NCBI GenBank assembly: GCA_913055575.1
Contig: CAJXLI010000003.1
Location: 1 to 43,132 of the forward strand
From: an uncultured Ectothiorhodospiraceae bacterium
GTDB lineage: Bacteria; Pseudomonadota; Gammaproteobacteria; Nitrococcales; Halorhodospiraceae
Length of the DNA stretch: 43,132 nt
Direction: 5' to 3'
The notes below the pieces were generated by a model, which searched no databases, was not told the DNA's origin, and saw only the letters and a list, made by a program, of their open reading frames with translations. Made by a program: the position numbers and the translations under genes. Positions 15,426-39,618 of the stretch are shown here, piece after piece; within the stretch, counting starts at the first letter, position 1; the number at the start of each line of letters is the position of its first letter.

Positions 15426-18400
15426 TCACCGTCCGCCGGCTGGCGGGTCCGCGCGGCCGGTCCACCGCTGCCAGCGCTGCGCCGCGGCCCGGTACAGCCA
15501 GCCGCCCTCCTGGCGCTTGGTCAGGTCGTGCAGGACGCGGCTGGCGCGCTCATAGCTGATCCGCTCGGCGACCATGTCGCGGTAGACGCGCTCGGCCACC
15601 CGCCGCCGGCGCACGGCGTCCCCGGCATCGAGGAAGGACTCCAGGAGATCCAGGGCGCGCCGCCAGGGGCCCGGCGGCTCGCCGCCGGCCGCGGCGCCGC
15701 CGGCCTGGTCCGGGCGCGCCGCCTCGGCCGCGTCCCGGATGGCGCACAGGTAGGCGTGGCGCACGTCGCTCTGCATCTCGGGGCGGGCCATGGCGTCCGC
15801 CACGGCCGCCTGCACGGTCTCGTAGGTCAACGCGCCGTGCTCGCGGAAGGCGTGCAGGCGCCGCAGGCCCTCCGCGGCCGCCTGCGGCTCGGGCGAGACC
15901 AGCCGCTCGCTGGCCGCGTACGCCTCCGCCCACGCCTGCCAGCGGTAGACGAAGTCGAGCCCGGCCCCCTTGATGTTCTGGATGCCCATGATGCGGTTCA
16001 GATGCCCCGGCGGGGTCACCGCCGTCAGGCGCTCGATGATGCCGTCGCCGGCGGCGTGGCTGTCGTGGATGACGACGAGCTTGTCGCGGAACGCCGCGGC
16101 CCACCAGCGGCGGAAGGCGTCGTCGAGGGCCGCGTCCGGGCCGCTGGCGCGGGCGAGCCGCGCCTGGAGATCCCTGTAGGCGTCCCGCTGCCCCCGCCAG
16201 CGGCGGACGTGATCGACGATCGACGCGGCGTGCGCCACGCCGTCCCGGGCCAGGGCCTCGTGGAGGCGCTCCGGCTCGTCCAGCAGCTCGAGGTAGGCCT
16301 GCGCCCCGCCCTCGCCCGGCAGGCACGCCGCGAGCTGCCCGGCAAGCTCGCCGTCGTCGCGGACCTGGCGCAGCCACGCCGCCGCCGAGGCCAGGATCGC
16401 CTCGGGCCCGCGGTCATCGGCGGCCCCCTGCGGCCAGAGGCTCAGCCCCGCCAGGTACGCCGCCAGCGCCTCCTCGATATAGCCCGTCAGCCCGGCCAGA
16501 TTGGTGCCGATGAGGACGTGCCGATCGGCGGACAGGTCCTGGACGAGCATGCTCGCGAAGACGCGCGAGCGTGCCACCCGGTCGGCGCGGTTGTTCACCA
16601 CGGTGCTGACCACGACCCCGGGCTCGCCCGCCGGGTCCTGGCGGTCGAAGCCCATCCGCGTCCAGTTGGCGAGGGTCCCGTACCGCTCGTTGGCGGACAT
16701 GCCGTTGACGAACTGGAGCCGCCGGCCGCGCACGGGGGCCGCCGGGAAGGTCTTCAGCACGCCCAGGTCCGGGACGACCCGGTCCGCCATCTCCTTGAGG
16801 GCGAAGTCCTGCGACACCCCGAGCTCCTCGGCCATGCGCATGACCAGGGCGATGTTGGCGGGGTGCTCCTCGTAGGGGAAGCGCGCCAGCACGTCCTCGG
16901 TGAGCAGGCCCGGCTCCCGCCAGCCCACGGCGGTGAAGCGCGTGCCCTTGGCGGCGCAGGCCTCGCGCAGGATCGGCGCCATCTGCTGCTCGCTCGTCAC
17001 CAGCCGCGAGCGGCGCGGGATGAAGGCGGTCATGGCGTAGGGGATATCCCGCCCGGCGGGCCCCTGCAGGTCCTCGTGGTCCGGGTACGTGTTGGTCAGC
17101 GTCGAGAGGTCGTCGCGCATCCACTGCTCCTGCAGGATCCGCGCGTAGGACGGCGTCAGCCCCATGCACTCCCACAGGAAGACGTCGCTGCCGAGCCGGT
17201 CCGCGAGCCGCGCGACGGCGGCCTGCTCCCAGATCGTCGCCTTGTCGTAGGGCCGGAAGAGGAAGAGCTCGCGCAGGGGCCGGTGCGCGGGGGCGTACAG
17301 GAACATCGCCTCGCAGCCGGTGGTCTTGGAGAACACGGCGTAGCCGAGGGCGTTCATCAGCCCGGCCTTGAGCCGCTCCGTGCCGGACTTGCCGCGCGTC
17401 CCCCAGCCGCCGAGGACCAGCGGCAGCCGCCGGCGGCTGCGCACCATGCGCCGGAACAGCTGCGCGCGCCGGAGGAGGAACAGGCCGCCCACGCCGACGA
17501 TGAACACGAGCAGGTCGCGCAGGCTGTTCTGGTAGACGGACAGGAAGTACGTCTGGAAGCGCTCGAGGAGCGTGCGGTCGAGGCCCAGGTACGCGAGGGG
17601 ACCGGCGGCGAAGAAGCGGGCCGCACGCGGCTCCGGCCGGGCCCCGCCGTAGCCCTCGAGCCGCACGCCGATGCGCGCCTGGCGTAGCATCTCCGCGTAG
17701 CGGCTCGCCGGCACGGCGGCGACGTGCGTCCAGTTCCGCGCCTCGGCGAAGCGCTGGAAGGCCCCGGTCAGCCGCAGCTTGGCGCGGAGCGACGGCACGA
17801 GCCCGCTGGGCGGCTCCACCGTCGTCACGCCCTCGGCCGTGAACAGCCTGAGCCGCCGGCCGGCGTCCACGGCCGATACCACGTGGTCGGGCAGCGGCAG
17901 GTACGGGCGCCACCCCTGCTCCTCCTCGATATGCAGCGGCTCGCCGGGCACCTTCGTCGGCGACACCTCGGCGAGGACGGCGGACGGCGCGAGCAATGCG
18001 CCGTGGAAGACGCGGCCGCGGGTGTGGCTGTGCCCCTGCCGCTTGTCCGAGGAGGGGCGGCGCATCTCGTAGAGGAAGCGCCAGAGCCGGAACCCGGCCC
18101 GCTCGCCCCGGCGCAGCCACGGACCCAGCACCCCCCAGCCGAGCTCGTAGCTGAAGTCGTCCTGGGCCAGGACCGCCAGGACGCGGCCGATCTGGGCCTC
18201 CGAGTAGCCGCGCACGAGGCGCCGCGGCAGGCGGCACCACCGGCCGTCCCGGAGCCTGGCCGCGCGCGCGCCGAGGCTCGCCGCCAGACCGCCCAGCTCC
18301 GGATCCCGGCGGACCCGGATGCGCTCGGCCGCCATCGCCGCCTCGCGCCGGACGGCGGTGGCCGCCGCGCCGGTGTGCAGCGCGTCCAGCGCGCCCAGGG

Positions 18401-19595
18401 CCAGCTCCGCGCCGCCGCCCGCCGCCCCAGCCGCGGCATCGCCCGCCTCGACCGCGTCGACCGCGTCACCGGCGAGCGTATCGACCAGGACCCGCAGCAC
18501 GAAGGGGTCGGTCTCGCGCCGGGTGGCCTCGGTGAGCACCGCGACGCTGGCGTGCGCCTCCTCGGGGCGCGTCTCGCGGCCCAGGGCGTGCGCGGCCGCT
18601 GCCCGGACCTGCGGCGTGGCGTCGTCCAGCAGGAGCTGGCGGCCGAGCGCCCGGCCCCGCTCGCCCTGGAGCCGGGGCAGCTCCCGGCAGACGCCCTGGC
18701 GGACGTAGGGGCTCGGATCCTCGGCGGCCGCCTCGACGAGCGCCAGGACCTCGGGATCCTCCGTCTCCGCGTACAGCTGCCGCAGGAGGCCGACCAGGCG
18801 CGCGCGCACGAACAGGTCCGGATCGGCGCCCGGCGCCGCCAGGCGCTGCCGGGCCACGCCCTTGAAGCCGCTGTCCGGGATCGTGGCCAGCAGGGCGAGG
18901 GCCTCGCACTGGGCCCAGACGTCGTGCTGCGGGTCCTGGGCCAGCTGGTACACCAGCCGCGCCGCGTTGTGGCCTACCAGCGGCTCGCGGCGCTCGACGG
19001 GGATCTCCCGGAGCCCGCGCACCAGGGCGGCGAAGGCCGCGCGCGGCACGCGCTCATCGCCGCCGTAGTAGAGGGCCGCGCCCAGGGTGCGCTCGAGATC
19101 GAGCCGTCGCCAGAGCTCGGTACGGGCATCGGTCGCCGCTGCGGCGAGGGCTGCGTCGGCGACGGCGCCGGCACGCTCGGCGAGCGTCGCCGCCCGCTTC
19201 TCCCCCTCGCCGATGCGGTTCCGGCAGCGCTCGGCGACGGCGTCGAGGTCGAGCCAGCGCCGGAACGCCAGCCGATCCCCCACGGCCACCCGCTGGCTGG
19301 TGTTGAGGGCAGCCACGAAGTCCAGGGTCACGCGGCGCCGCTCGGCGGCCGACCGGGCGCGCGCGTGGGCCGACTCGAAGCGGGCCAGCGTCTGCTGGAG
19401 CTCGGCGATGCGCGCCAGCGTCTGCTCCAGCTCCTGGCGGATGAAGGTCAGCACCGCCACCGGATCGTCCAGGTCGGCCGCCGCCGCGTGGGCCCGGTCC
19501 ATCAGGGCGTAGTCGACGGCCGCCTCGTAGCGGCGCCCGGCGCGCGCCCCCGGGCCCTCGGCGGGGCCCGCCCGTCCAACCGTGCCGAGCCTCAT
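15426..19595 (-). CDS. CapB/PgsB-like amide ligase with a large N-terminal extension
   Basis: 1389 residues. The ligase domain (about 725-1130) aligns by eye with Bacillus PgsB, the ATP-dependent ligase that links glutamates through gamma-carboxyls. Matching elements are P-loop GTRGKSGTERL (732-742), SKTTGCEAMFLY, WECMGLTPSYARILQEQ, NTYPDHEDLQGP, FVNGMSANERYGTLANWTRM and NNRADRVARSRVFA. PgsB is only about 390 residues. Here some 700 residues precede it: a coiled coil (about 55-110), HEAT-like helical repeats (about 200-450), a mixed region with a basic, Ser/His-rich loop, and one membrane helix (about 700-718) just before the P-loop, where PgsB also has its membrane segment. About 250 helical residues follow. 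ATG 19593-19595 overlaps the upstream stop by 4 bases (ATGA), with GGGAGG before it. It is last in the operon. The polymer made is unproven. Confidence 0.8.
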   Translation of the reverse strand: MRLGTVGRAGPAEGPGARAGRRYEAAVDYALMDRAHAAAADLDDPVAVLTFIRQELEQTLARIAELQQTLARFESAHARARSAAERRRVTLDFVAALNTSQRVAVGDRLAFRRWLDLDAVAERCRNRIGEGEKRAATLAERAGAVADAALAAAATDARTELWRRLDLERTLGAALYYGGDERVPRAAFAALVRGLREIPVERREPLVGHNAARLVYQLAQDPQHDVWAQCEALALLATIPDSGFKGVARQRLAAPGADPDLFVRARLVGLLRQLYAETEDPEVLALVEAAAEDPSPYVRQGVCRELPRLQGERGRALGRQLLLDDATPQVRAAAAHALGRETRPEEAHASVAVLTEATRRETDPFVLRVLVDTLAGDAVDAVEAGDAAAGAAGGGAELALGALDALHTGAAATAVRREAAMAAERIRVRRDPELGGLAASLGARAARLRDGRWCRLPRRLVRGYSEAQIGRVLAVLAQDDFSYELGWGVLGPWLRRGERAGFRLWRFLYEMRRPSSDKRQGHSHTRGRVFHGALLAPSAVLAEVSPTKVPGEPLHIEEEQGWRPYLPLPDHVVSAVDAGRRLRLFTAEGVTTVEPPSGLVPSLRAKLRLTGAFQRFAEARNWTHVAAVPASRYAEMLRQARIGVRLEGYGGARPEPRAARFFAAGPLAYLGLDRTLLERFQTYFLSVYQNSLRDLLVFIVGVGGLFLLRRAQLFRRMVRSRRRLPLVLGGWGTRGKSGTERLKAGLMNALGYAVFSKTTGCEAMFLYAPAHRPLRELFLFRPYDKATIWEQAAVARLADRLGSDVFLWECMGLTPSYARILQEQWMRDDLSTLTNTYPDHEDLQGPAGRDIPYAMTAFIPRRSRLVTSEQQMAPILREACAAKGTRFTAVGWREPGLLTEDVLARFPYEEHPANIALVMRMAEELGVSQDFALKEMADRVVPDLGVLKTFPAAPVRGRRLQFVNGMSANERYGTLANWTRMGFDRQDPAGEPGVVVSTVVNNRADRVARSRVFASMLVQDLSADRHVLIGTNLAGLTGYIEEALAAYLAGLSLWPQGAADDRGPEAILASAAAWLRQVRDDGELAGQLAACLPGEGGAQAYLELLDEPERLHEALARDGVAHAASIVDHVRRWRGQRDAYRDLQARLARASGPDAALDDAFRRWWAAAFRDKLVVIHDSHAAGDGIIERLTAVTPPGHLNRIMGIQNIKGAGLDFVYRWQAWAEAYAASERLVSPEPQAAAEGLRRLHAFREHGALTYETVQAAVADAMARPEMQSDVRHAYLCAIRDAAEAARPDQAGGAAAGGEPPGPWRRALDLLESFLDAGDAVRRRRVAERVYRDMVAERISYERASRVLHDLTKRQEGGWLYRAAAQRWQRWTGRADPPAGGR

Positions 19596-22500
19596 CGATC
19601 CGCCTCCCAGCCCGGCGCCCGGGCCTCGCGCAGGGTACGGAAGGCCTCGGCATCCGGCCGGAAATCGCGGAGCAGCCGGCCGTTGCCCAGCTCGTGGCGC
19701 CCCAGGGTCTGCCCGCCGCCGAAGTGCCACGTCAGGAACAGGCCGAACGAGGTCCGGGAGCGGCGCACATCGCGGCGGATCCGGCCGGTCGCCTCCACGC
19801 GGTCGCCCGCCGGGCGCCACAGGTCGTAGCCCACATCCAGGCCGAGGCGCCCCGTGTCCACGGCGTCGCCGCGATCGCCGTCGGCGAGGTAGCGCGTCGC
19901 CCGGTAGGAGAGGTCGAGCTGCACGCCCCCCAGGAACTGCCGGAGGCCGGCCTCGGCGTAGACGTTGTCGGGATCGCTGAGGCCCAGGTCCGCATTCGTC
20001 CGCCCACCGAGGCGGCCGTAGAGGGTGGTGTCCAGGAACGGCCGGTGCTCGATGCCGGCCCGCAGGCCCCAGCCGACGGGGTGGTCCGCCTTGTAGCGCG
20101 TGAAGACGTCGCTGTCGGCCGTCTCGCTGCCGGGCAGGCCGGCGTCCAGGGTCAGGTGGCGCGCGAAGGCGTCCAGGCGCCCGCTGAGCCAGGTGCGCTC
20201 GGCGACCTGGCGCCGGTGGCGGGCCGCGGCGCGCACGGTCAGCGCGGCCTCCGGGCCCTCGGCCTCGGTGCGCTGCACGAAGGCGCTGCCCCGCAGGGTC
20301 AGATCCAGGGGCCAGCCGTCGGCGGCGCCGAGCACCCGGTCCGGGAACAGGACGCGCGCCGTGCCGCCGAGGGTGGGCCGGCCGTCACCCCGCAGGCGCA
20401 AGCGCAGGCCCCCCTGGTCGAACCGATCCGCCACGGCGTCGTAGCGGCGCCGGTCGAGGCGCAGCTCTAGGAAGCCGTCGCGGTCGCCCGTCCCGCCGGG
20501 CTCGTCCTCCACCTGGTCGCGGAGGCGGTAGCCGCCGCCCACGCTGGTCGTGCCCTCGCCCTGGCCATGGAGCGGGCGCTCGCCGAGCGGCGCCGCCGTC
20601 TCCGGCACGCCCTCGACCGCCAGGGCGCGCTCGGGCGCCTCCTGCGGGCGGCTCAGCTCGTAGCGCGGGGCGCTCTCGGGGACCGCCCCGCGGTGGCGCA
20701 GGGCGTAGACCCGTACCAGCGCCTCCGAGCGGCCCGCCTCCGGGGTCACGCGGACCCGGGACTGATCCGCGGGCACCTCGCGGTAGGCGCTCACGATACC
20801 GTCCTCGCGGTAGCGGTCCACGCGCACCAGGGCCGGCCCGTCGACGGCGAAGCGGGCGGGCTCGGCGCGCGTGGCCACCTGGTACGACCGCTCGACCGGC
20901 GTGACGAGCGGCTCCAGGCCGTCCTGGCGGCGCTCCTGGACGGAGGCGATCAGGTAGCGCTCCTGGGTCGGGCGCTCGACGCGGAGGGCGATGGTGTGGC
21001 GGCCGGGCCCGATAGCCACCGCCACGCGCCGGCCGCCGGGCGGGACCTCGGCGCTGCGCCAGGGGCCGTCGTCCAGGCGGTAGTCGAGCGTAGCCGGCGG
21101 CTCGGCCGGGCGCGTGGGCATGTCGACGCTGCGCAGGTCGAGCACGAGGGTCGTCGCCTGGCGGTTCACGAAGTCGAGATAGAGGCGGCCGGGGCCGGAG
21201 AGCACGTGGTCGTTGCCGTCGAGCCGGCCCAGGAACGGCGTACGCGCCCGGAGCTGCGGGCTCTGCGGCTGCCAGCCCGCCACCTCCACCGTGCGCACGC
21301 CCGCGCTCGCCGCCACCTGCTCGACGCGCTCCCAGCCGAAGTACGGGCCGACCATGCCGCGCAGGCGGGTGAGCAGCGGCGAGGGATCGCCGCTCAGCGC
21401 CCGCGCGTAGATGCGCCGGCCGAGCCCGGGGCAGGCGCCGTAGGGCGCAGGGCACTGCGCCAGGGCGTCGGCGAGCGCGACCGCCGGGTCCTCGGCGGGC
21501 GCCAGCGCCACCCCGCCGGGCAGGGCGGAACCGGGGTCGTCGGGCAGCGGTGCCGCCAGGCCGGCCTCGGTGCCGCATACGCGGCGGACACGGCCGGAGG
21601 CCGGATCCGCCACGTCGACCTCGGCCCGGCAGGCCGCCGGCCCGTCCCGGTCCCGCTGCTCGAGCCCGGCGGCCATGACGCTCGGCCACGGCTCCGGGAG
21701 GACGGGCAGGCGCAGCGACGGCCGGCGCCACTCGACGCGCACGAGCATCGGCCGGTCGGGGGCGACGGTCACGCGCCCGGCGGTGCCCTCCAGCGCCACG
21801 GTATAGCGATTCCCCGGCCCCACCGCGGCGGCGCCGCCGAGCGGCACCAGGCCCGCGGCGGGCCCCGTGGCCGTCACCGGCAGCCGCCGCGTGCGGCCGC
21901 CGGCCGCCAGCCGGACCCAGCCGGACGCGTCCCGGGCGTCACTCGCCATCTGGAGCCGGAACGTGAGCCGCAGCTGCCCCGCCGGCGCCGTCAAATGGAC
22001 CGGCTGCTCCGGGGTCGCGAGGGCCATCGTGACCCGGGTATCCCGCCTGAGCGCACGCAGGGTGCGCGTGCCGGCGGCCCGGGAGACGAGCCGCTGGGCG
22101 GGCGCCCAGGCCCGGGGCCCGGGGTGGTCCTGGGCCCAGGCCGCCCAGGCGGCGGGGTCCGGCGGCGTGGCGGGGTCGCGGAGGTCGTCGGCCACCGCCT
22201 GCCCCCGCTGCAGCGCCTGCGCCCAGGGCGCGTTCGCCGCGTGCGCCTGCAGGATCTCCTGCGCCCCGGCCGTATCGCCGGCACGCAGGGCCTCGAGCGC
22301 CTCGAGCCGGGCGGCCCGGGCCGGCTCCAGGCGCTCCCCCGCGCGCGCCGCGGCGCGCGGCCAGCCGCCGGCGTAGAAGGCGCGGGCGCGCGCTGCATCC
22401 GGCACCGCCCCGGCCGGCAGCAGGGCCGCCAGGTCGCGTGCCAGCGCCTCCTGGCCGCGCTCCAGGAGCAGCTCCACAACACCCCCCAGCGGGGCGAGCT

Positions 22501-24829
22501 CGTCGGTCCGGAGCGCCTGGGCGACGTGGGCGCCGATCCACACCCCGCCCCCCTGGTCGGCGCCGCCCAGCGTCTGGCGCAGGCGCTGGAACGCGCGATC
22601 GCGCATGGACGGGTCATCGCTGTACAGGTGGAAGCCGCGGAGCAGCCGGTCCGCCAGCCCCGTGGCGCCGACCTGGCGCAGGGCGCGGATGCGGTCCATC
22701 TCGGCCTCGCGCCAGATCGCCCCGCCGGCGCGGCCGGCGAGCGTTCCCCAGGCCTCGGCCGCGGCCGCCCAATGGCCGTCGGCCTCGTAGCCGGCCGCCC
22801 GCCGCGCAAGCGCCCGCACATCGCGGCCGGTCGACCCCTTGCCCGGTGCCTGGAAGCGGTGGCCGCGCTCGTGGATCCCCACCGCGTAATCGGCGTAGCG
22901 GGCAGCGAGGAAATCGGCGAGCCGCGTCCAGTGGGCGGTGAGGGCCTCGGCGAACGGACTGTCGAGGCGGGACGGGTCCTCGCCCGCGACGCGGCGGCGC
23001 AGCTGCGCCCGGAACACCTGCCGCGCCGCATCGGGGCCGCCGAGGGCCTGGACCGCATGGGTGTAGGCGCGCTCGTCCAGCTCCAGGGCGTGCGGCTTGC
23101 GGTACGCGATCCCCACCGGCAGCCCCGGCCCCGAGCGGTGCTCGACGGTCACGCGCCGGACCGCCCGCGGCAGCTCGACGGTCGCCACGGCGCTGCGCAC
23201 CAGCGGCGCGGAGGTGCCGAGGGCGCTGAAGCGCGCGCCGAGCGTGCCCAGCAGGCCGCCGGCGGCAGGCCCGGCCCGTCCCTCCGGCGTCAGCTGGCGC
23301 AGGGCGGCCATGGCCGGCGCGGCCTCCGGCGCCGGCGCGGCGGGGGCGCCGGACGGCGTGATGCGCACGCGCCGCGTGGGCGCGCTATCGAAGTGCAGCG
23401 CCAGCGTCACCGGCCGGTCCAGGCGGCCGCGGGCCGCGTAGAGGCGGAGCTCGGCCGGGGCCTCGCGCTCCGGCAGGCGGTAGTGCAGGCGCGCCGGCGC
23501 GGTGCCGCCCAGCGCGCTGAGCGTCTGCGTGCGCAGCGCCGCGGCGCGGGCGGGGACCTCGTCGGTGGTCATCACGGGCCGCTCCTGGGGCCGGGCCAGG
23601 GGCCCGCGCAGCCCCCCGGGGCGGGCATAGACCGTGGACCAGGCCGCCTCGCCCGCATTGCGGGGCATCAGGTCGCGCCACGAGCTATGGCCGCCGCGGA
23701 GGTCCGAGGCGGCGCGGCGGACCGCGTCGGGGAACGGCGTGTCCTCGGCCTGCGCGCGCAGGGACGCCGCTGCGCCCAGGCCCGCGTCGGCCTGCCGCGC
23801 CGTGCGCAACCGGGCGCGCCAGGCGCGCGCCAGGCCGGGCACGGTCGTGGGGTCGTCCCGGATGTCGTCGCCCGGCCCGGTCGTGGCCAGCTCGCCGTAG
23901 AGGTCTCCAGGATCGGCGATCCAGTTCGCCGGGCGCGACAGCAGGTCGTCGTCGGCCGGGCGCCGCCGCACGCGCAGCAGCGTGCGCGCGCTGGCCTCGA
24001 CGGTGACCGTATGCTCCCCTTCCGGCACCTGGAGGTACGCCGTCTCGGCAGTGCTGACACGGGCGATGCGCCCGTCCAGCCGGGCCACGGCGCTGCGCTC
24101 AGTCCGCGTGCGGCCGCGGTAGACGCGCTGGCGCTGGCCGTCGATCCCCATCACCAGCCGGTACGGGCTCTGCAGGTCGGCGGACGGGCGGCGCGCCAGG
24201 CGGCGGTGGCGGAACGCCAGGCGCGTCGGCCCCGCCACCTCGATGGCAACGCGCTCGCCCGGCTCGAGCTCGCGGACGGCGGCGCGGCGCGCACCGATCC
24301 GCAGCCGGTGCCCCGGATCGGGCGTGATGTCGTAGCGGTAGAGCCGCTGCGTCGGCACCGGCACCGTCCGCGCGTGGAAGGCGGCGAGCCGGACCGGCCC
24401 GGACGCCGGGGCCTGCACCCGGGCGAGGTAGGCGTCGTTACCCGGGGCCGGCACCGCCCGGTGGCCGTCACCGCGCGGCTCGGGCTGGGCCGTGACCCAG
24501 GCGGCACCGTCCTGGGACAGGGCCACGCGGAGCCCGGCGAACGCGTCGGAATCGGCATCGCCCCGGTCGCGGAGCAACAGGTCGGCGCCGCCGGGCAGCA
24601 GCAGCGTCACCGCCTGCCCTGCGTCCAGGCGGAGCACCCGGTCGCCGCTGTCCGCATGCCCCGCCGCAGGGGGGCGGACCCAGGGGCGATCCGCCAGGCG
24701 ATCCCAGCGCTGCTGGGGGGATTGGCCCTCGTGGAGCCGGAACTGGAGCTCGTCCAGCTCGGCGCTCGCCCCGAGCGCAACCACCAGGGCGAGCAGCGCG
24801 ACGACCGCCGCCGGGATGCCCCACCTCAC
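19592..24829 (-). CDS. Very large helical-repeat and beta-barrel protein, candidate outer-membrane polymer exporter
   Basis: 1745 residues. GTG 24827-24829 overlaps the upstream stop (GTGA) and opens a clean signal peptide (GIPAAVVALLALVVALGASA). Beta-rich modules come next. A helical, TPR-like stretch (about 650-890) is rich in Ala/Arg pairs such as LARRAAGYEADGHWAAAAEAWGTLAG, and more beta modules follow. From about residue 1430 to the end come alternating strands with aromatic girdles (FLELRLDRRRYD, YAEAGLRQFLGGVQLDLSYRATRYL, SFGLFLTWHFGG), typical of a barrel. Signal peptide, repeats and barrel is the plan of PgaA, BcsC and PelB, which carry polysaccharides across the outer membrane. A similar job for the CapB/CapC product is inference. 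A roughly 40-residue tail after the last strand is odd for a barrel. No family name recognised. Confidence 0.66.
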   Translation of the reverse strand: MRWGIPAAVVALLALVVALGASAELDELQFRLHEGQSPQQRWDRLADRPWVRPPAAGHADSGDRVLRLDAGQAVTLLLPGGADLLLRDRGDADSDAFAGLRVALSQDGAAWVTAQPEPRGDGHRAVPAPGNDAYLARVQAPASGPVRLAAFHARTVPVPTQRLYRYDITPDPGHRLRIGARRAAVRELEPGERVAIEVAGPTRLAFRHRRLARRPSADLQSPYRLVMGIDGQRQRVYRGRTRTERSAVARLDGRIARVSTAETAYLQVPEGEHTVTVEASARTLLRVRRRPADDDLLSRPANWIADPGDLYGELATTGPGDDIRDDPTTVPGLARAWRARLRTARQADAGLGAAASLRAQAEDTPFPDAVRRAASDLRGGHSSWRDLMPRNAGEAAWSTVYARPGGLRGPLARPQERPVMTTDEVPARAAALRTQTLSALGGTAPARLHYRLPEREAPAELRLYAARGRLDRPVTLALHFDSAPTRRVRITPSGAPAAPAPEAAPAMAALRQLTPEGRAGPAAGGLLGTLGARFSALGTSAPLVRSAVATVELPRAVRRVTVEHRSGPGLPVGIAYRKPHALELDERAYTHAVQALGGPDAARQVFRAQLRRRVAGEDPSRLDSPFAEALTAHWTRLADFLAARYADYAVGIHERGHRFQAPGKGSTGRDVRALARRAAGYEADGHWAAAAEAWGTLAGRAGGAIWREAEMDRIRALRQVGATGLADRLLRGFHLYSDDPSMRDRAFQRLRQTLGGADQGGGVWIGAHVAQALRTDELAPLGGVVELLLERGQEALARDLAALLPAGAVPDAARARAFYAGGWPRAAARAGERLEPARAARLEALEALRAGDTAGAQEILQAHAANAPWAQALQRGQAVADDLRDPATPPDPAAWAAWAQDHPGPRAWAPAQRLVSRAAGTRTLRALRRDTRVTMALATPEQPVHLTAPAGQLRLTFRLQMASDARDASGWVRLAAGGRTRRLPVTATGPAAGLVPLGGAAAVGPGNRYTVALEGTAGRVTVAPDRPMLVRVEWRRPSLRLPVLPEPWPSVMAAGLEQRDRDGPAACRAEVDVADPASGRVRRVCGTEAGLAAPLPDDPGSALPGGVALAPAEDPAVALADALAQCPAPYGACPGLGRRIYARALSGDPSPLLTRLRGMVGPYFGWERVEQVAASAGVRTVEVAGWQPQSPQLRARTPFLGRLDGNDHVLSGPGRLYLDFVNRQATTLVLDLRSVDMPTRPAEPPATLDYRLDDGPWRSAEVPPGGRRVAVAIGPGRHTIALRVERPTQERYLIASVQERRQDGLEPLVTPVERSYQVATRAEPARFAVDGPALVRVDRYREDGIVSAYREVPADQSRVRVTPEAGRSEALVRVYALRHRGAVPESAPRYELSRPQEAPERALAVEGVPETAAPLGERPLHGQGEGTTSVGGGYRLRDQVEDEPGGTGDRDGFLELRLDRRRYDAVADRFDQGGLRLRLRGDGRPTLGGTARVLFPDRVLGAADGWPLDLTLRGSAFVQRTEAEGPEAALTVRAAARHRRQVAERTWLSGRLDAFARHLTLDAGLPGSETADSDVFTRYKADHPVGWGLRAGIEHRPFLDTTLYGRLGGRTNADLGLSDPDNVYAEAGLRQFLGGVQLDLSYRATRYLADGDRGDAVDTGRLGLDVGYDLWRPAGDRVEATGRIRRDVRRSRTSFGLFLTWHFGGGQTLGRHELGNGRLLRDFRPDAEAFRTLREARAPGWEADR

Positions 24830-25764
24830 GGCGCCGCCTCCAGGAGGCAGCGCCGGAGCCGGGCCTGCAGGGCGGGCTCTTCGAGCACGCGGCGGCGCAG
24901 CTCGCGCACCATCTCCACGTGGACGAAGCGGCGGAAGCCGATCCGCCGCAGCGCGGCGGCGTTCCGATTCGTGGTGGCGCCGAGCTCGAAGACGGACTCG
25001 CCGTAGCCGAGCACGACCGCGTCGAGCGCGCTGTCCAGGCACCGGTACACCGCCCGCGCCGGCCCCTGGAGCCGCCGCGTCCCGCTGGAGACGATCACCT
25101 CGGCGCGGCGCCCGGCCGAGGTATCGCGGTGGCCGCGAGCATAGCCGTGGAGCTGCACGACCGCGCCGTCGGGGTACGCCTCGGCGAAGGCGAGCGTAAA
25201 GGCGTTGAAGAGGCTGACATCCAGGTGCGCCACGTCGGAGCTACGATCGCTGCGGTCGTCCGGCGCCCACCGCGGCACGGTGTTCCAGGCCGCCGCGCGG
25301 AAGCCGCCCGCCGCGACAAGCTCGGTAGCGATCTCGCCGGTATCCAGGTCCTTGAACCGGTGCGGCGCCTGGAGGAGGACGTCGCTGGCGTCCGAGACCC
25401 CCTGGTTGAGGAGGTAGAAGCCGCGCCCCCGGACCTCCGCCGGCGGGTCGGAGATGGCGTGCACCCTGCCGGTGCCGATCCGGACCGTCCGCGCCACGAG
25501 GCCGAACGGCTCCAGGGCCGCGGCATCCGGCTCCGCCTCGCCCGCCAGGAGCCGGCGGAATACCGTCCGCGCCTCCTGCATCGTGCGCCAGGCGGGCGCC
25601 TGGAAGCCCGCCTCGGCCTGCACCGCCTCGAGCGCGGCCGCGAGCGGCACGGTCCGGCCCTCCTGGTCCTCGTCCTCGGCGCAGGCGGGCGCGCCGGCGC
25701 CGGCGATGGCGATGGCGAGCACCCCCCCCAAGATGCCCCCGGTGACCCCGTTAGCGCGCCTCAT
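24826..25764 (-). CDS. Periplasmic hydrolase-like protein, candidate polymer-trimming peptidase
   Basis: 312 residues. A signal peptide (to about APACA, 29) sends it to the periplasm. The mature part has polar motifs spaced like a zinc amidase/carboxypeptidase: APHRFKDLDTGEIA (His135, Asp139, Asp141, Glu144), NTVPRW, SSDVAHLDVSLFNAF (His180), VVQLHGY (His206) and a late FVHVEM (Glu284). This recalls the N-formylglutamate amidohydrolase, M14 and PghP-type polyglutamate hydrolase folds: two metal ligands early, a later His, a catalytic Glu near the end. That comparison is by eye. Two degenerate copies of the same domain are fused to the CapC-like protein encoded upstream. The start ATG lies 14 bases inside the preceding gene. 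Cleaving or editing the operon's polymer is the favoured role. Confidence 0.62.
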   Translation of the reverse strand: MRRANGVTGGILGGVLAIAIAGAGAPACAEDEDQEGRTVPLAAALEAVQAEAGFQAPAWRTMQEARTVFRRLLAGEAEPDAAALEPFGLVARTVRIGTGRVHAISDPPAEVRGRGFYLLNQGVSDASDVLLQAPHRFKDLDTGEIATELVAAGGFRAAAWNTVPRWAPDDRSDRSSDVAHLDVSLFNAFTLAFAEAYPDGAVVQLHGYARGHRDTSAGRRAEVIVSSGTRRLQGPARAVYRCLDSALDAVVLGYGESVFELGATTNRNAAALRRIGFRRFVHVEMVRELRRRVLEEPALQARLRRCLLEAAP

Positions 25765-28192
25765 CGCCAGCCCCCCGGCGGCTTACACCGCGCGCGTCGC
25801 TGCGTCCAGGCCTCGTCCTCGAGAGGCTGAGGTACGCCTCGCGCTCACCCGCGAGGCGCACCTCGACAGGGTAGCGGCCAGGCGGCAGATCGGCACCCAG
25901 CTCCAGGAAGAATCGCCGCGCCTCGCCGACCGTGTCGGCAGCGCCCAGGACGGGATAGCCCGCTCCCGGGGCATCGACGCGCACCTCGTACCGCCGGTGC
26001 GGGAGCGTCAAGCTGTCGTGCGGCGTGAGCCCGGCCGGCCGGGCCCCACCGACGGTCACCTCGACGGCGCGCCGCCCCGCGCTCGGCAGGACCGGATAGA
26101 GACGGAAGGACAAGAGCTCGGCCCCCTCGCTGGTCTTCTCGTACATGAAGCGGGTCGTCCCCGGCCGGAGCCGGTTGGCCAGCCGCAGGCCGAAGGGCCG
26201 CGCCGCGCCGGCGACGTTGGATAGGTAGAAGCGCGCCGCGGCGCCGCTGTCGATGCGGATCCGGTGGCGCCCGCGCGTCACGGCAGGCAGCGTCAGCCGC
26301 CCCGAGGCCGCGCCGAGGCGGCGCTCGAGGACCCGCTCGCCGTCGACCGTGACCCGGACGGAGGCGCGGCGCCCGGCATCGTGCCCGGCGAACACCAGGC
26401 GCGGCCGTACAGGGCGCGGGGCGGCCGCGTCGATACGCACGCGCCGCGTCTCGCCGGTCGGCAGCGGCGTATAGGTCGTGGCCAGCGCCTCGGGCCGCAC
26501 GGCCTCGTCGCCCGGCCTCGGCGTGAGGATCCGGCGCGCCGACCAGGCCCCCTCGGGCCGATACGCCTGCCAGTCGTAGTCGCCGGCAGCGATCGCCGGA
26601 TCGATCTCGGGGGGTCGCGCCTGGACCGCGACCGTCGATGTCGCCTCCGGGGTCGTCGCCACCTCGGCCGGCGGGAGGTAGAACCAGCTCCGCCGATCAC
26701 GCAGGGTGTCCGGCCGGGCGAAACGATCACCCGGGACGCGGACGGTCCGCCGCAAGCCGTCCGGCCGGTTGAACACCGCCGCGTGGACACGCGGCGGCCC
26801 CGAGACGCGCACGGCGGCCACCTCGGGCGGCAGGCGGAAGTAGAGGCGGCGTGGCTCGCTGATCAGCCGGTCCGCCTCCTCGCCCCGGAGCCGGTCGTAG
26901 GGCGAGGCGGGCCCGGCGGCCTGGACATCGATGCGCCTGATGACGGCGCCCGCGTCGTCGAGCAGCGCCACGCGGGCCGGGCCGGGCGCTACCCGCGCCC
27001 CGTCGGGGGCGAAGCAGGCGCAGCGCAGGTCGATGCGCAGCGGGGTCGGCGCGCCGTCGACGTGGCGCACACGCCAGCGCGGCTCGGCCGCGGCGCTGAA
27101 GACCCGCACGACGGCCGGATCCAGCGCGGGCGCGGCCGCCTCCGCATCGCCCTGGGGGAACAGGCGGGCGACGGCGGGGACGTCGCTCTGCAGCTCGAGG
27201 AGCCGCCCCTGCCACGTCCCCTCGATACGGACGGTCTCCGCCTCCCAGGGCGCAGCCACACGGCGCACCTCGCCCGGGCGATCGGCGAACACCCGCACGC
27301 GCGCCTCGCCGGCGGCCTCCTCCAGGGCCGTGAGCTGGATCTGGGCGGCGGCGCCCGCCTCCGGCAGCTGCACCGTCGCTCGCCGGTGGGGGCCGACGCG
27401 CACGCCCTGCGGGGTCACGGGCGGCACGATCGGCTCCACCTCGCTGCTGTCGCGGATGTAGAGCGTGCGCTCCACGTAATCGCGACCCGGCACCCCGGCA
27501 GGGCCGATACGGTGCCAGCGCACCGCGGCGAGGTGGCTGCGCTCGGTCCGGGTCAGCAGCCCGGCCGGATAGACGTTGCCCTCGGCCAGGCGGGTGCGCT
27601 GCTCGCCGCTGAGCCGCGGCCAGCGGGCGGCGACCTGGGCGCCGCTCAACCGCTCGGGGATGTAGAGCCTGGCGTTCACGGTAGTGACCTCCGGCCCCAG
27701 CACCGCCGCGCGGAGCCGCAGCCGGTCGATCCGCGGAGACTCCGGCAGGCTCAGGACGGCCAGCTGGCTATCCGTGGGCACGGCGTCCGATCCCGCGTAC
27801 GCCTTGCCCGGGCGCGTCCCGCCATCGGCGGCTGGATAGCGCGTCACGCCCGTGCGGAAGTGGTGCAGGCGCTCGAAGACGACCTCCCCCGCCTGATCGA
27901 CCCCCTGCACCTCGACGGCGAAGCGTAGCGGCGCCGAGCGATCCGGCTGGACCGCACCCGGGGGCACATCGCCGTGCACGAGCAGGCGTACCCGCGGCAC
28001 GGGCCGCGGCAGCGGGAAGCGCGTCCAGGCGTCCCGATCCAGCTGGTACGCCGTGCTCGTCCGCCCCTCGCCCTGGGGCAGCAACCCCGCGCCACCGGCA
28101 CCGGGCAGGGCGGCGTAGATCCCGTAGCCGAGGGCCGCTACGGCCGTGACGATCACGGCGACGACACTGATGTGGCCGATCCGGCGTAGCAC
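25751..28192 (-). CDS. Membrane-anchored beta-rich periplasmic protein, function unknown
   Basis: 813 residues. A single N-terminal membrane helix (about 8-30, ISVVAVIVTAVAALGYGIYAAL) is followed by a long periplasmic region that is almost all beta strands, with no catalytic motif found. Several segments look like repeated sandwich modules of the kind that bind carbohydrate or scaffold envelope machines. Strands such as YFRLPPEVAAVRVSGPPRV resemble modules in the 1745-residue exporter candidate (FAVDGPALVRVDRY). That suggests shared ancestry or a joint complex bridging the two membranes. The start is GTG 28190-28192, three bases after the capC-like stop, with GGGAGGA upstream. The 3' end overlaps the hydrolase gene by 14 bases. 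A periplasmic adaptor role is inference. Confidence 0.6.
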   Translation of the reverse strand: MLRRIGHISVVAVIVTAVAALGYGIYAALPGAGGAGLLPQGEGRTSTAYQLDRDAWTRFPLPRPVPRVRLLVHGDVPPGAVQPDRSAPLRFAVEVQGVDQAGEVVFERLHHFRTGVTRYPAADGGTRPGKAYAGSDAVPTDSQLAVLSLPESPRIDRLRLRAAVLGPEVTTVNARLYIPERLSGAQVAARWPRLSGEQRTRLAEGNVYPAGLLTRTERSHLAAVRWHRIGPAGVPGRDYVERTLYIRDSSEVEPIVPPVTPQGVRVGPHRRATVQLPEAGAAAQIQLTALEEAAGEARVRVFADRPGEVRRVAAPWEAETVRIEGTWQGRLLELQSDVPAVARLFPQGDAEAAAPALDPAVVRVFSAAAEPRWRVRHVDGAPTPLRIDLRCACFAPDGARVAPGPARVALLDDAGAVIRRIDVQAAGPASPYDRLRGEEADRLISEPRRLYFRLPPEVAAVRVSGPPRVHAAVFNRPDGLRRTVRVPGDRFARPDTLRDRRSWFYLPPAEVATTPEATSTVAVQARPPEIDPAIAAGDYDWQAYRPEGAWSARRILTPRPGDEAVRPEALATTYTPLPTGETRRVRIDAAAPRPVRPRLVFAGHDAGRRASVRVTVDGERVLERRLGAASGRLTLPAVTRGRHRIRIDSGAAARFYLSNVAGAARPFGLRLANRLRPGTTRFMYEKTSEGAELLSFRLYPVLPSAGRRAVEVTVGGARPAGLTPHDSLTLPHRRYEVRVDAPGAGYPVLGAADTVGEARRFFLELGADLPPGRYPVEVRLAGEREAYLSLSRTRPGRSDARGVSRRGAGDEAR

Positions 28193-28195
28193 GGC

Positions 28196-31100
28196 TCAAT
28201 CCTCCCGGCCGGGCGCCAGCGCGCCGCCGCGGGCGCGCACGAAGGACTCGACGCGCGACGCGCCGAGCGTATCGGTGCCGACGCGCGTGATCGACCACGG
28301 CGTCCCCGGCGCCAGGCTCGCCGCCAGGGCCAGCTCGTCCGCCCCGGTCCACACGAGCAGGAAGGACTGGCGGGTCTCCGGGTCCACGCGGCGCTCGTAG
28401 CGGTACGACGGCCACCGCTGCCGGATCTGCGCGAGCGCCAGGATATCCCTGGACGCGGCGTACTGCCGGACCGCCGCCACGAGCCCGGGATCGGGCGGCG
28501 CGGCCAGGGGCACGCCCGCCAGGGAGGCGCTCACCCCGGCCCGGGTCTCGGGCATATCGAGGGCGACGAAGTGGGCCGCCTCGAGCGCATCCGCCGTCTT
28601 GTCCGTATAGCCGGCGCGCAGGGCGGACGAGACCCAGGCCACCAGGAAGGCGTCGTCCTCCGCCTGGTCGAGGTAGGCGGCCTGCGGCGTCCGTCCCACG
28701 TCCAGGCCCGCCACCGCCGGGCTGCCGTCCGCGAAGGCGACCCCCTCGCCGTCCGCCAGCAGGTCGACCAGGTAGCGCTGCTCGGCGGACAGATCCCCAC
28801 GACGGGTGGCGCCGTCCGCGGTGGCGATCACCACGCGCGGCTGCGCCTCGGCGCCCGCCCGCGGGGTGAAGCCCCGGACCTGCACCCCTGTGAAGGCCGC
28901 ACTGCCGCTCTCCCGGTAGAGGACCTGGCTCACCAGGTTGAAGGCGTTGGCCGCGTTACTGCGCCGCAGCACGTCGGCGCGCCGCTCGGGCACCGCCCGG
29001 GGGTGGGCGCCGGCTACCAGGAGCGCCCGGGCCCGGCTGCGCCGGAAGAGATCGCGCGCCGTGGCCAGGGTCCCCGGCTCGGCGAGCGGCCGCGGCGCCT
29101 GGATGCCCAGCGGCGCGGCCGCTCCGACCCGGAGCACGAAGGTCCCCCACGACCGGCTCCCGCCCCCCTCCTCGGCGAGGACGACGAGCTCGTGCTCGCC
29201 GTCGCTGTGGGACAGGAGCTGGTAGCCGACGGCATCCGCCGCGGAGCGGATGCGGGTCAGGGCCCGCCGCGCCGCCGGGGTCCACGCGCCGTCCCGGAGG
29301 CCGGTCTCGGCGACCTGCAGCAGCGGCTTCAGGACCTCGGTATCCAGGTAGAGCAGCTCGGCCAGGCTGGGGGCGCGGTAGGCGCCGCTACCCTCGGGCG
29401 CCACCGCGCCCGCGCCGTCGAACAGGGCCGCGAGGCTCCGGCCCGCCACCTCCGGTAGCGGGCCGGACGGGACGCCGCCCGCCTGCCCGTCCCGCGCCGC
29501 CAGCAGCCGGGCGACCCCGTCCGGGGTAACGAACAGCTCGCCGAAGCCGTGCCACATCGACGCCCGCTGGACGTTCTGGCCGGGCCCGCGGGCGAAGCGC
29601 ACGTCGAGGCGCGGCAGCAGGCCCTCGAGCTGCTCCGCGGAGACCCCCTCGGGCAGCCTCGACTTGACGTACAGGGCCTCCCCGGCCGGGGCGTCTTCGG
29701 CGCCCGGCGCGCCCCGCAGCTGGATCACGTTGCGCACGGCGGCCGCCCGGTGGAACGCGTGGAAGGCGGACTGCCGGTGGCGGAGCGGGTCGAGCCCGGG
29801 CGTCGAGCGCGTTGACCGCGCCGACCGGCTGCTGCCGGCCAGGATCATCACGCGGGCACGCTTGGCACGGTAGAGGCTGAGCCCGGCCTCGGCCAGCTGC
29901 GGGGTCTCCAGCGGGTCCGGGATCTCGAGGACGAGGTCGGTGGCCGGCCCCGTCCGCACGATCAGGCTGCTCCAGGCGCGCCCCGGCCGATCATCGATCG
30001 CGGCGAGGTGCGTCTCGTCGAGCCGGTGGAGCCGATACCCCGTCCTGGCGAACAGGCGCCGCAGGCGCTCGAGATCGACCGTGCCGTCGCCCCGGGCGTA
30101 GTCGATCAGCGCCTCGCCGGCGCGCTGCAGGTCAGCGACCTCGGCCGGCGTGGGTCGGGTCAGCGCTTGCTCCAGCCCGGCCCCGTACGCCTCGATCGCC
30201 GCCCGGTCGACGTAGTCCGCGGGGCTCGGGCCGCTGGCGACGGCGGGCGCCTCCGACCCGGCAGCGCCCTCGGCTCGCTGTCCCACTTCCGGCATGAACG
30301 TCAACGCGAACCCCAGGACGCTCGCCAGCGCGACGCCGGTCAGCGAGGTCTGGAGCGTCGCCCGGGTCAGGCGCGCCGGGATCGCCTTGTCGTGCATCTT
30401 GATCGCGAGCAGCGTCGACAGGAGGTAGCCGAAGGCGAAGTAGTCCGTCACCTTCACAGCGGGGGCGAGGATGGCCAGCCCCCAGCCGAGGGCGAGCTTG
30501 TAGGCGAAGCCGACGTTGAAGAAGACGAACAGCTTGCGCGCGCCCTGCACCGAGATCTTCGCGAAGACGGGCAAGGACAGCAGCAAGGCCGCGAGCCCGT
30601 AGATGATGAACGCCTCCACGAACGACGCCGCGACCTTCTCCGGCTGCCACCACTGCAGGGCGATCAGGGCCGGGATCAGGATGCCGCTGAAGTCCCAGCC
30701 GTAGATGAGGTTCATGCGGGAGGCCAGGAACGCCGTCACGACCAGCACGATGTAGGCCTTCGGCGTCGCCAGGAGCGACGAGGCGAGCTCGGCGTACATG
30801 AACCGCAGGTCCGACATGCGGAAGTTGGTGAACTCGATGAGCCCGTAGCGCACGATCAGGTAGGTCAGGCCCACCGTCACCACGGTCGGGAGCACGCTGC
30901 GCAGCAGGCCCGGCTTCCAGAACTGGTTCGCCATGAGGGCGACGATGACCAGGCCGAAGCTGTGCAGCTCGTTGCGGTAGTCGAAGGCGATCCCGAGGGT
31001 GTCGTTCAGCGCGGCCCCGAAAAGCGGCAGCAGCCACGCGTCGAAGAGCAGGCGCACCCCGATCGAGGCCAGGATGATGGCGAAGAAGCGATCCCGGCCG

Positions 31101-31360
31101 AAGAAGCTGTTCCAGGCGCCGAGCGCCGAGAGGCGCTCGGACAGCGTGTACACGATCAGGTAGGTGGCCACGGCCTCGGCCGTGATGACGGCCACCGCCC
31201 AGGGCTTCACCAGCAGCAGCGGGACCAGGTAGCCGGGGACCACAATGCCCGACAGCACCCAGCCCAGGCGCAGGTTGAGGAAGCACAGGACGAAGACGCT
31301 GATCCAGGTCGTCGTGACGACCGAGCTGACCAGGCTCCCCTCGGGGAAGATGGGCAGCAC
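28196..31360 (-). CDS. CapC/PgsC-like polyglutamate synthesis membrane protein, doubled and fused to a degenerate hydrolase region
   Basis: 1054 residues. The N-terminal 175 residues follow Bacillus PgsC: RLGWVLSGIVVPGYLVPLL, then LIVYTLSERLSALG, FFAIILASIGVRLLFD and SFGLVIVALMANQFWKPGL. A second, looser copy covers about 190-370 (YGWDFSGILIPALIALQWW, FVFFNVGFAYKLALGWGL). PgsC itself is about 149 residues. From about 375 on, the protein is periplasmic. It carries two segments (about 460-545 and 735-825) resembling the operon's hydrolase but with key His residues lost (LHG becomes LRG and VRG). PgsC is the membrane partner of the PgsB ligase, so pairing with the CapB-like protein is expected. 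The start is GTG 31358-31360 behind GGGGGGA, 12 bases after the receiver gene. Confidence 0.78.
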   Translation of the reverse strand: MLPIFPEGSLVSSVVTTTWISVFVLCFLNLRLGWVLSGIVVPGYLVPLLLVKPWAVAVITAEAVATYLIVYTLSERLSALGAWNSFFGRDRFFAIILASIGVRLLFDAWLLPLFGAALNDTLGIAFDYRNELHSFGLVIVALMANQFWKPGLLRSVLPTVVTVGLTYLIVRYGLIEFTNFRMSDLRFMYAELASSLLATPKAYIVLVVTAFLASRMNLIYGWDFSGILIPALIALQWWQPEKVAASFVEAFIIYGLAALLLSLPVFAKISVQGARKLFVFFNVGFAYKLALGWGLAILAPAVKVTDYFAFGYLLSTLLAIKMHDKAIPARLTRATLQTSLTGVALASVLGFALTFMPEVGQRAEGAAGSEAPAVASGPSPADYVDRAAIEAYGAGLEQALTRPTPAEVADLQRAGEALIDYARGDGTVDLERLRRLFARTGYRLHRLDETHLAAIDDRPGRAWSSLIVRTGPATDLVLEIPDPLETPQLAEAGLSLYRAKRARVMILAGSSRSARSTRSTPGLDPLRHRQSAFHAFHRAAAVRNVIQLRGAPGAEDAPAGEALYVKSRLPEGVSAEQLEGLLPRLDVRFARGPGQNVQRASMWHGFGELFVTPDGVARLLAARDGQAGGVPSGPLPEVAGRSLAALFDGAGAVAPEGSGAYRAPSLAELLYLDTEVLKPLLQVAETGLRDGAWTPAARRALTRIRSAADAVGYQLLSHSDGEHELVVLAEEGGGSRSWGTFVLRVGAAAPLGIQAPRPLAEPGTLATARDLFRRSRARALLVAGAHPRAVPERRADVLRRSNAANAFNLVSQVLYRESGSAAFTGVQVRGFTPRAGAEAQPRVVIATADGATRRGDLSAEQRYLVDLLADGEGVAFADGSPAVAGLDVGRTPQAAYLDQAEDDAFLVAWVSSALRAGYTDKTADALEAAHFVALDMPETRAGVSASLAGVPLAAPPDPGLVAAVRQYAASRDILALAQIRQRWPSYRYERRVDPETRQSFLLVWTGADELALAASLAPGTPWSITRVGTDTLGASRVESFVRARGGALAPGRED

Positions 31361-31372
31361 GATCAGTCCCCC

Positions 31373-31747
31373 CTACGGCCCGCGGGGGGCATGCAGGGCC
31401 TCGTCGAGCCGCGCCTTGAGCGCCGGGAGGCCGACAGGCTTGTGGATCAGGTCGTAGGCGCCGAGCTCGCGCACCTGCTGGCGCAGCTCCGCGTCCATCG
31501 AGCCGGAGAGGACGATGGCGCGCGGCGGATCGGTGAATCGGCTGCGCACCTCGGTGAGGAAGCGGATGCCGTCCATGACGGGCATATAGAGGTCGACGAA
31601 CATGAGGTCGAAGGACTCGCCCTCGAGCCGTTCCAGGGCCCGCTGGCCGTCCGACACCACCGTGGCGCTGTGCCCCTCCACCTCCAGGGCGAACTGGATG
31701 AGCTCCTGCGTGAACTCGTCGTCGTCAATCACCAGGATCCGGGCCAT
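31373..31747 (-). CDS. Single-domain response regulator (receiver)
   Basis: 124 residues, one CheY-like receiver and nothing else. The acidic pocket (DDD, 8-10), phospho-acceptor Asp52 in FVDLYMPVMDG, Ser81 in VLSGS and Lys103 in HKPVG are all present, so it should be phosphorylatable. The start ATG shares one base with the stop of the sensor gene (TAATG), so the two are translationally coupled. With no output domain it must act by protein contact, possibly on the CapB/CapC machinery or on KaiC. Because the coupled sensor lacks a normal phospho-donor His, the phosphate source is unclear. Confidence 0.9.
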   Translation of the reverse strand: MARILVIDDDEFTQELIQFALEVEGHSATVVSDGQRALERLEGESFDLMFVDLYMPVMDGIRFLTEVRSRFTDPPRAIVLSGSMDAELRQQVRELGAYDLIHKPVGLPALKARLDEALHAPRGP

Positions 31748-34478: not shown

Positions 34479-34769
34479 TCAAGGCGCATCACCCTTCAGA
34501 TCGAGCCCGACCAGGACCTTCTCCTGCTCCGAGAGGTCGCCGACGACGCGGCGCACCGGCGGCGGGAGCTGCTTGATGACCACGGGGGTGGCCAGGATGC
34601 GCTGGTCCTCGGCGAGCTGGGGGTTCTCGAGGATGTCGATGACCTTGAGCTCGTAGGCGGCCGCCTCGCCCGAGGCCTCCTTGAGGAGCTCTTTGAGGTT
34701 CTCGATGGCGCGCTCCGCCGCGGGCGTCCGGCCGGCGATATAGAGGTGCAGCACGTAGTTATCGGCCAT
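34479..34769 (-). CDS. kaiB: KaiB, fold-switching clock protein
   Basis: 96 residues. In cyanobacteria KaiB binds phosphorylated KaiC late in the daily cycle and turns its activity round. The family pattern is complete: YVLHLYIAGRTPAAERAIENL as the opening strand-helix, then LKVIDILENPQLAEDQRILATPVVIK, LPPPVRRVVGDL and VLVGLDL. Length is near the usual 100. The start ATG lies 14 bases after the kaiC stop. kaiA is absent, as is normal outside cyanobacteria. A short DNA remnant resembling the helix-one region of this gene occurs near 37.75 kb. Confidence 0.95.
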   Translation of the reverse strand: MADNYVLHLYIAGRTPAAERAIENLKELLKEASGEAAAYELKVIDILENPQLAEDQRILATPVVIKQLPPPVRRVVGDLSEQEKVLVGLDLKGDAP

Positions 34770-37939: not shown

Positions 37940-39607
<1,668 letters not shown>

Positions 39608-39618
39608 GGGCAGGCCGG

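Follow-up and report, generated by a model that had tools for sequence, protein, structure and literature searches.

A HEAT-repeat PgsB-like ligase that closes a conserved bacterial operon

The stretch of DNA analyzed here (the window; 43,132 nucleotides, contig CAJXLI010000003.1 of an uncultured Ectothiorhodospiraceae bacterium) encodes a 1389-residue protein, P0001, in which a relative of PgsB/CapB follows a long N-terminal part with HEAT repeats. This ligase closes an operon that is conserved across many unrelated bacteria. With moderate confidence, we propose that it is the polymerase of a conserved envelope module by which diderms synthesize, export and trim a gamma-glutamyl polymer (poly-gamma-glutamate, gamma-PGA, or a close relative). 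The analysis itself shows the architecture of the protein, the operon, the ligase and hydrolase folds (both by prediction), and the loss of the first metal-site histidine in the hydrolase-like tail copies of a CapC-like protein.

Architecture of the ligase

The following features were assigned, all on the minus strand:

15426..19595 (minus): HEAT-PgsB-like ligase (P0001), open frame of 1389 residues; PF13646 and TIGR04012 matches, relatives, AlphaFold2 model
18258..19082 (minus): HEAT/alpha-solenoid, residues 172-446; PF13646 at residues 285-374, AlphaFold2 helices, profile matches to alphaRep and PP2A scaffold
17613..18245 (minus): conserved alpha/beta module, residues 451-661; family conservation, AlphaFold2 secondary structure
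17427..17522 (minus): hydrophobic helix, residues 692-723, directly before the P-loop; AlphaFold2 model, hydrophobicity profile
15930..17420 (minus): Mur-ligase-fold core including the C-terminal domain strand, residues 726-1222; VIA-align, alignment with short PgsBs
17382..17411 (minus): P-loop GGWGTRGKSG, residues 729-738; relatives, family conservation, short-PgsB alignment
16026..16448 (minus): poorly conserved helical insertion inside the C-terminal Mur domain, about residues 1050-1190; conservation, AlphaFold2, alignment
15426..15929 (minus): C-terminal helical end, residues 1223-1389, with conserved DAGDAVxRRK and RQKGGWL; family conservation

The ATG of the ligase gene overlaps the stop codon of the upstream gene by four bases. 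A plus-strand reading of 15426-19595 was rejected because that strand holds no single open frame there.

The second half of the protein is a PgsB relative (NCBIfam TIGR04012, residues 719-1040, E 4.5e-60, 203.4 bits). Judging from the positions of the HEAT and TIGR04012 matches, about 720 residues precede this core, in agreement with a preliminary description of the window that had noted an extra N-terminal part. The HEAT-like repeats named in that description were also recovered: HEAT_2 (PF13646) matched residues 285-374 with E 6.1e-10 and 39.7 bits, above the Pfam cut-off of 27.7; structure prediction gave a solenoid extending beyond this match; and a profile of the ligase alignment found HEAT proteins in the PDB, namely alphaRep designs (E to about 1e-12) and the PP2A scaffold (E about 4e-4).

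Structure was predicted with AlphaFold2 for residues 172-1371, using an alignment with 71 relatives (model residue + 171 = protein residue). The model had a predicted local distance difference test score (pLDDT) of 87.6 and a predicted template modelling score (pTM) of 0.88. It starts with an alpha-solenoid of paired helices (182-446), followed by an alpha/beta module (451-661) with the conserved motifs WRxxxE, DKRQ, HxxGR, TKVPGEP, RPYLPLxD (RPYLPLVD) and RNW, a linker of low model confidence (664-691), one long helix (692-723) and the ligase. Fold-search results cover the ligase part only (rows within model residues 524-1086), and over about model residues 521-1090 Foldseek and VIA-align matched it to MurC, MurE, MurF, folylpoly-gamma-glutamate synthetase (FPGS) and cyanophycin synthetase (Foldseek E 4.4e-6; VIA Z 16.0-19.5, root-mean-square deviation 2.9-6.2).

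The P-loop and signature blocks, previously described as well kept, are indeed conserved in the family and shared with short PgsBs. As in PgsB/CapB, a predicted Mur-ligase fold, the P-loop and the shared catalytic blocks occur together, and a CapC partner is encoded (PF14102 in the window; an upstream CapC-family gene in 43 of 52 loci). The helical tail of the preliminary description was correct only in part. A helical end is present, but part of the post-core region completes the Mur C-terminal domain, because the strand and motif IMGIQNIKG, past an insertion of ~130 residues, aligns with the VGNIHG-type ('GNIHG'-type) terminal motif of three short PgsBs.

Distribution and operon conservation

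Scanning genome contigs yielded 328 confirmed stretches, from which 80 loci were kept. Ligase frames longer than 1270 residues were present in 73 of the 80 loci, and the other seven, which were shorter, were set aside. As full-length relatives were 39-43% identical and long frames so frequent among the loci, the long architecture is not a matter of chance. Searching 398 genomes of the phylum with TIGR04012 yielded 43 matches at E up to 1e-3. All seven strong ones (E <1e-50) lie in frames of 1109-1652 residues, the shortest of which stops at a contig edge; the remaining 36 (E 2e-6 or worse) are probably other Mur-type ligases. Thus, a similar extension is found in homologues from many phyla, and the 73 loci together with all seven strong matches make it a rule of the family and not a quirk of the source genome. 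No strong PgsB-type ligase other than the long form turned up in the 398 genomes sampled.

Proteobacterial carriers, by record title, included gamma-, alpha- and betaproteobacterial genera, Desulfobulbaceae and other Deltaproteobacteria. Further record titles named Nitrospirae, Planctomycetota, Verrucomicrobiia, Campylobacteraceae, Hydrogenedentes and Sulfidibacter, whose phylum we take to be Acidobacteriota. Methylovulum miyakonense and Marinobacter daqiaonensis are among the carriers. Two long-ligase copies were observed in one genome of Vreelandella massiliensis (loci L035 and L082), and also in a Sulfidibacter genome (G363). Among 249 genomes of the phylum, eight matched the ligase: the source genome, five over nearly the full query, one split on two contigs, and one with a weak short match. 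The gene was found in none of 58 relatives, eight of them of the same genus. Thirteen plasmid records matched with the ligase part alone (at most 22% of the query), and viral contigs gave one candidate stretch and no ligase locus.

Next to the ligase and convergent with it, a gene at 13812-15398 (plus) encodes a Rieske domain fused to a glutamate-synthase-like domain. It is 78% identical in one same-genus genome, where no operon protein stands beside it on a short contig. Since this neighbor was kept without the adjoining operon, the operon was either gained here or lost there.

The remaining genes of the operon and the clock genes beside it are as follows:

19592..25042 (minus): 1816-residue open reading frame (start uncertain), predicted exported, with a TPR-like middle and a beta-rich, outer-membrane barrel-like C-terminal 300 residues
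24826..25764 (minus): 312-residue protein with a signal-peptide-like N-terminus (by eye), predicted gamma-PGA-hydrolase / N-formylglutamate-amidohydrolase fold; family alignment, model, VIA
25751..28192 (minus): 813-residue protein with an N-terminal hydrophobic stretch, matching no known family; family scan, sequence
28196..31360 (minus): CapC-like membrane protein of 1054 residues, with two tail domains related to the 312-residue protein; PF14102 E 8.2e-36
31373..31747 (minus): stand-alone receiver domain, start taken as the ATG at 31747; PF00072
31747..34395 (minus): CHASE2 sensor with a degenerate kinase domain, lacking the H-box histidine; family alignment
34479..34769 (minus): KaiB, PF07689 E 1e-25; adjacent to the operon in the window, but not found next to it in the relatives examined
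34784..36253 (minus): KaiC, PF06745 E 3e-88; adjacent to the operon in the window, but not found next to it in the relatives examined

In the window, the order on the minus strand is KaiC, KaiB, CHASE2 sensor, receiver, CapC-like protein (1054 residues), 813-residue protein, 312-residue protein, 1816-residue protein and ligase. Conservation was counted as same-strand upstream matches in those 52 loci whose sequence extends 8.9 kb or more upstream of the ligase: the 1816-residue family was found in 40 loci, the 312-residue family in 42, the 813-residue family in 44 and the CapC family in 43, and some families missing from the upstream positions occur elsewhere in the same locus. The 1816-family gene ends within 1.5 kb of the ligase in 57 of the 70 loci for which at least 600 upstream bases were available. 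Farther upstream, the sensor directly precedes CapC in 29 of 31 stretches, and two show nothing. A receiver is located between sensor and CapC in 15 of these 29 operons; in the other 14 the two genes nearly touch and leave no room for it. The long ligase with its full extension was present in all 29 genomes, with or without the receiver.

The 312-residue protein is predicted to fold like gamma-PGA hydrolases and N-formylglutamate amidohydrolases. Its PH, QxHG and HxE histidine motifs are kept in all 25 rows of the family alignment (one row a duplicate). The model (pLDDT 90, pTM 0.88) gave as its five best VIA matches an FGase-like protein, an N-formylglutamate amidohydrolase and three gamma-PGA hydrolases (Z 13.8, 12.5, 12.3, 12.0 and 12.0), the last three being 3a9l, 5onj and 21dc (Z 12.0-12.3); succinylglutamate desuccinylases and carboxypeptidases rank below (Z 10-11). 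In the related tail domains of CapC, the PH-site histidine of the first metal site is kept in none of 33 copies with the site aligned, and the QLHG site in one of nine. Because metal-site histidines are lost, these sequences suggest that the tails are probably binding domains.

The C-terminus of the 1816-residue protein is a likely outer-membrane barrel, as strand-like hydrophobic alternation exceeded z>2 in 16 of 22 family members, compared with 2, 2, 3 and 8 of 22 for four other regions. TPR_2 matched weakly in five of 22 members (best E 0.008), and designed TPRs appeared in the PDB profile search (E 0.0056). The CHASE2 sensor appears to be a conserved pseudokinase in the window and in relatives, the latter by eye: among 43 aligned rows, three were ordinary kinases with SHELRTP, two were gapped, and the remaining 38 lacked the H-box histidine.

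Proposed function and alternatives

We infer the substrate, the polymer, the direction of transport, the partners of the HEAT half and the localization, and on our preferred reading the module would work as follows. The Mur-fold core would use ATP at GGWGTRGKSG, activating the end of the growing chain as an acyl phosphate, and would then, in the manner of PgsB/CapB, add an amino acid (most likely glutamate). The growing chain would cross via the CapC-like membrane protein, whose metal-less hydrolase-like tails would hold it in the periplasm, and the 813-residue and 1816-residue (TPR plus beta-barrel-like) proteins would take it through the outer envelope, while the 312-residue metallo-hydrolase would trim or clear it. 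Activity would be set by the CHASE2 pseudokinase sensor, to which about half of the operons add a receiver. Both the HEAT half and the alpha/beta module would belong to the synthase as constant components, most likely as a scaffold by which the ligase is oriented on CapC at the membrane.

Several observations weigh against this reading. The ligase, at 203.4 bits, falls below the curated TIGR04012 cut-off of 222.7 bits, and therefore another amino acid or acceptor is possible; the cut-off was passed in none of the 398 genomes. A Pfam scan found no CapA/PgsA family among the nine operon proteins. For the 312-residue protein, the Foldseek top 50 listed carboxypeptidases first and did not include PghP; PF05908 was unmatched in 25 family members at E up to 1 (one entered twice); no PDB match was found by profile; and HHalign to one PF05908 sequence and six FGase sequences gave nothing significant. 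For the 1816-residue family, the beta-rich C-terminus found no PDB match, NfrA_C matched only one of 22 members, weakly (E 0.022), and in 13 of the 70 loci this gene was not directly upstream of the ligase. In addition, if the hydrophobic helix of the ligase spans the membrane, the HEAT half and the ligase would lie on opposite sides, a poor fit for a cytoplasmic scaffold. No NCBIfam match was found for the whole 1816-residue family.

The missed cut-off is also consistent with a module that makes a different polyamide, or that joins an amino acid to a carrier (with a cyanophycin-like or other substrate), instead of gamma-PGA. The P-loop GGWGTRGKSG is unlike the NGIRGKST/S of short PgsBs, and cyanophycin synthetase and FPGS fit the predicted fold about as well as the Mur ligases do. 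However, CapC and a hydrolase predicted to have the gamma-PGA/N-formylglutamate fold are encoded in the same operon, and we consider this alternative rather unlikely. As the cut-off was missed and CapA was not found, we describe the ligase as PgsB/CapB-like in its proposed action, yet do not file it as PgsB/CapB.

The position of the HEAT half depends on the hydrophobic helix. The best hydrophobic window of the ligase family begins at residue 695 (mean 1.65). Among 74 sequences, 41 have one window above 1.6, 17 have none and 16 have two or more, and Lys/Arg residues are more common after than before the helix in 71. If the helix spans the membrane, this charge bias would place the HEAT half outside the cytoplasm. 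The helix could then be a single-pass anchor, with the ligase inside and a periplasmic N-terminal half whose HEAT repeats bind the CapC tails and the 813-residue and 1816-residue proteins for polymer hand-over; in the alignment, its position is that of the N-terminal anchor of short PgsBs. On the other hand, neither a signal peptide nor any other consistent hydrophobic segment was detected in the ligase family (profile and 13 inspected N-termini), and export of an N-terminal tail of ~690 residues without a signal peptide is unusual. The 17 sequences without any window above 1.6, and the pTM of 0.88, which suggests that both halves of the model pack together, also count against this topology, and we regard it as rather doubtful.

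The preliminary description had suggested that the receiver, KaiB or KaiC probably docks on the N-terminal extension. In the source genome, the genes for KaiB and KaiC immediately precede that of the sensor and share its strand. The proximity of KaiC, KaiB, sensor, receiver and ligase on one strand would suit a cytoplasmic docking platform through which a clock or phosphorelay gates polymer synthesis, and a stand-alone receiver acts via protein contact, which HEAT solenoids, as protein binders, could offer. However, neither KaiB nor KaiC was matched in 82 locus sets, nor in 44 sets with extra upstream sequence, not all reaching far upstream. KaiC matches at E up to 1e-3 were found in 44 of 51 genomes searched, mostly short and weak; about ten genomes had a strong one (E 1e-19 or better), and only one of these was on the ligase contig, 39 kb away. 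Clock docking was therefore rejected as the reason for the extension, and the clock link may be particular to the source genome. Docking of the receiver was not supported either, as the receiver is absent from 14 of the 29 operons with the same full-length ligase. The sensor lacks a phospho-acceptor histidine, and a spanning helix would put the HEAT half away from receiver, KaiB and KaiC. Overall, a docking platform appears very improbable.

Returning to the envelope module, we tentatively suggest, at somewhat less than even confidence, that it represents a widespread, undescribed class of trans-envelope secretion in diderms, a gamma-glutamyl polyamide counterpart of synthase-dependent export of cellulose and poly-N-acetylglucosamine (PNAG). 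This class would combine a HEAT-fused peptide ligase as synthase, a CapC channel whose dead hydrolase domains retain the chain, an active hydrolase in the periplasm and an exit protein with TPR and beta-barrel parts. Gram-positive bacteria, with their small PgsBCA proteins, are the best-known source of poly-gamma-glutamate. If our proposal is correct, glutamate-polymer building and export in diderms, including methanotrophs, sulfur bacteria and bivalve symbionts, becomes directly testable. In open-access full-text literature, searched by title and start of abstract, no paper on a HEAT-fused PgsB or its operon was found. An earlier BLAST census, in the passages considered here, counted 250 bacterial species, from 58 genera, in which homologues of PgsB and PgsC occur together, many of these species without known polymer production, and those passages say nothing of long forms (PMC4497714); some of the present relatives were probably counted in it. 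In the part of a study of lucinid symbionts considered here, genes are annotated as 'Gamma-polyglutamate synthase CapB / CapC, storage compounds' (PMC11168628), and such annotations would merit re-examination if the proposal is true.

Other genes in the window include a Type I Zorya anti-phage system (PADLOC; 860-7333, minus), with ZorD at 860-3751, ZorC at 3748-5184, ZorB at 5181-5987 and ZorA at 5987-7333. Adjoining it is an SbcCD-like pair, an SbcC/SMC-like ATPase (7704-10358) and a calcineurin-like phosphoesterase (10362-11483), both on the minus strand. A two-domain ABC ATPase (ABC-F-like) adjoins a SpoIIE-type phosphatase at 37940-41169 (plus).

Comparison with known systems

PgsB/CapB (TIGR04012) shares with the ligase the Mur fold, a GxRGKS P-loop, the ECM and NxRxDR blocks, a terminal NI motif, a hydrophobic anchor ahead of the P-loop and the pairing with CapC. 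In contrast to the 1389-residue ligase, three short PgsBs that were translated have 376-448 residues, and only the ligase has the HEAT half, the alpha/beta module, the helical insertion and the extra C-terminus; the score below the curated cut-off and the lack of CapA among the nine operon proteins also set it apart. FPGS and cyanophycin synthetase have the same fold (VIA Z 16-19). These enzymes are soluble and, to our knowledge, have neither a HEAT half nor a CapC partner.

The 312-residue protein resembles PghP/YndL gamma-PGA hydrolases (PF05908) and N-formylglutamate amidohydrolase (PF05013) in predicted fold and in the PH/QxHG histidines. It differs from them in having no sequence-level match, in being predicted to be exported, and in having relatives among the CapC tail domains. 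As for the operon as a whole, its proposed inner-membrane synthase, its hydrolase and a putative TPR and barrel protein recall synthase-dependent exopolymer secretion, which uses a TPR/outer-membrane-barrel protein (Bcs, Pga, Alg; NfrA). Whereas the synthase of Bcs, Pga and Alg is a glycosyltransferase, that of the present operon is a peptide ligase, and its barrel is putative.

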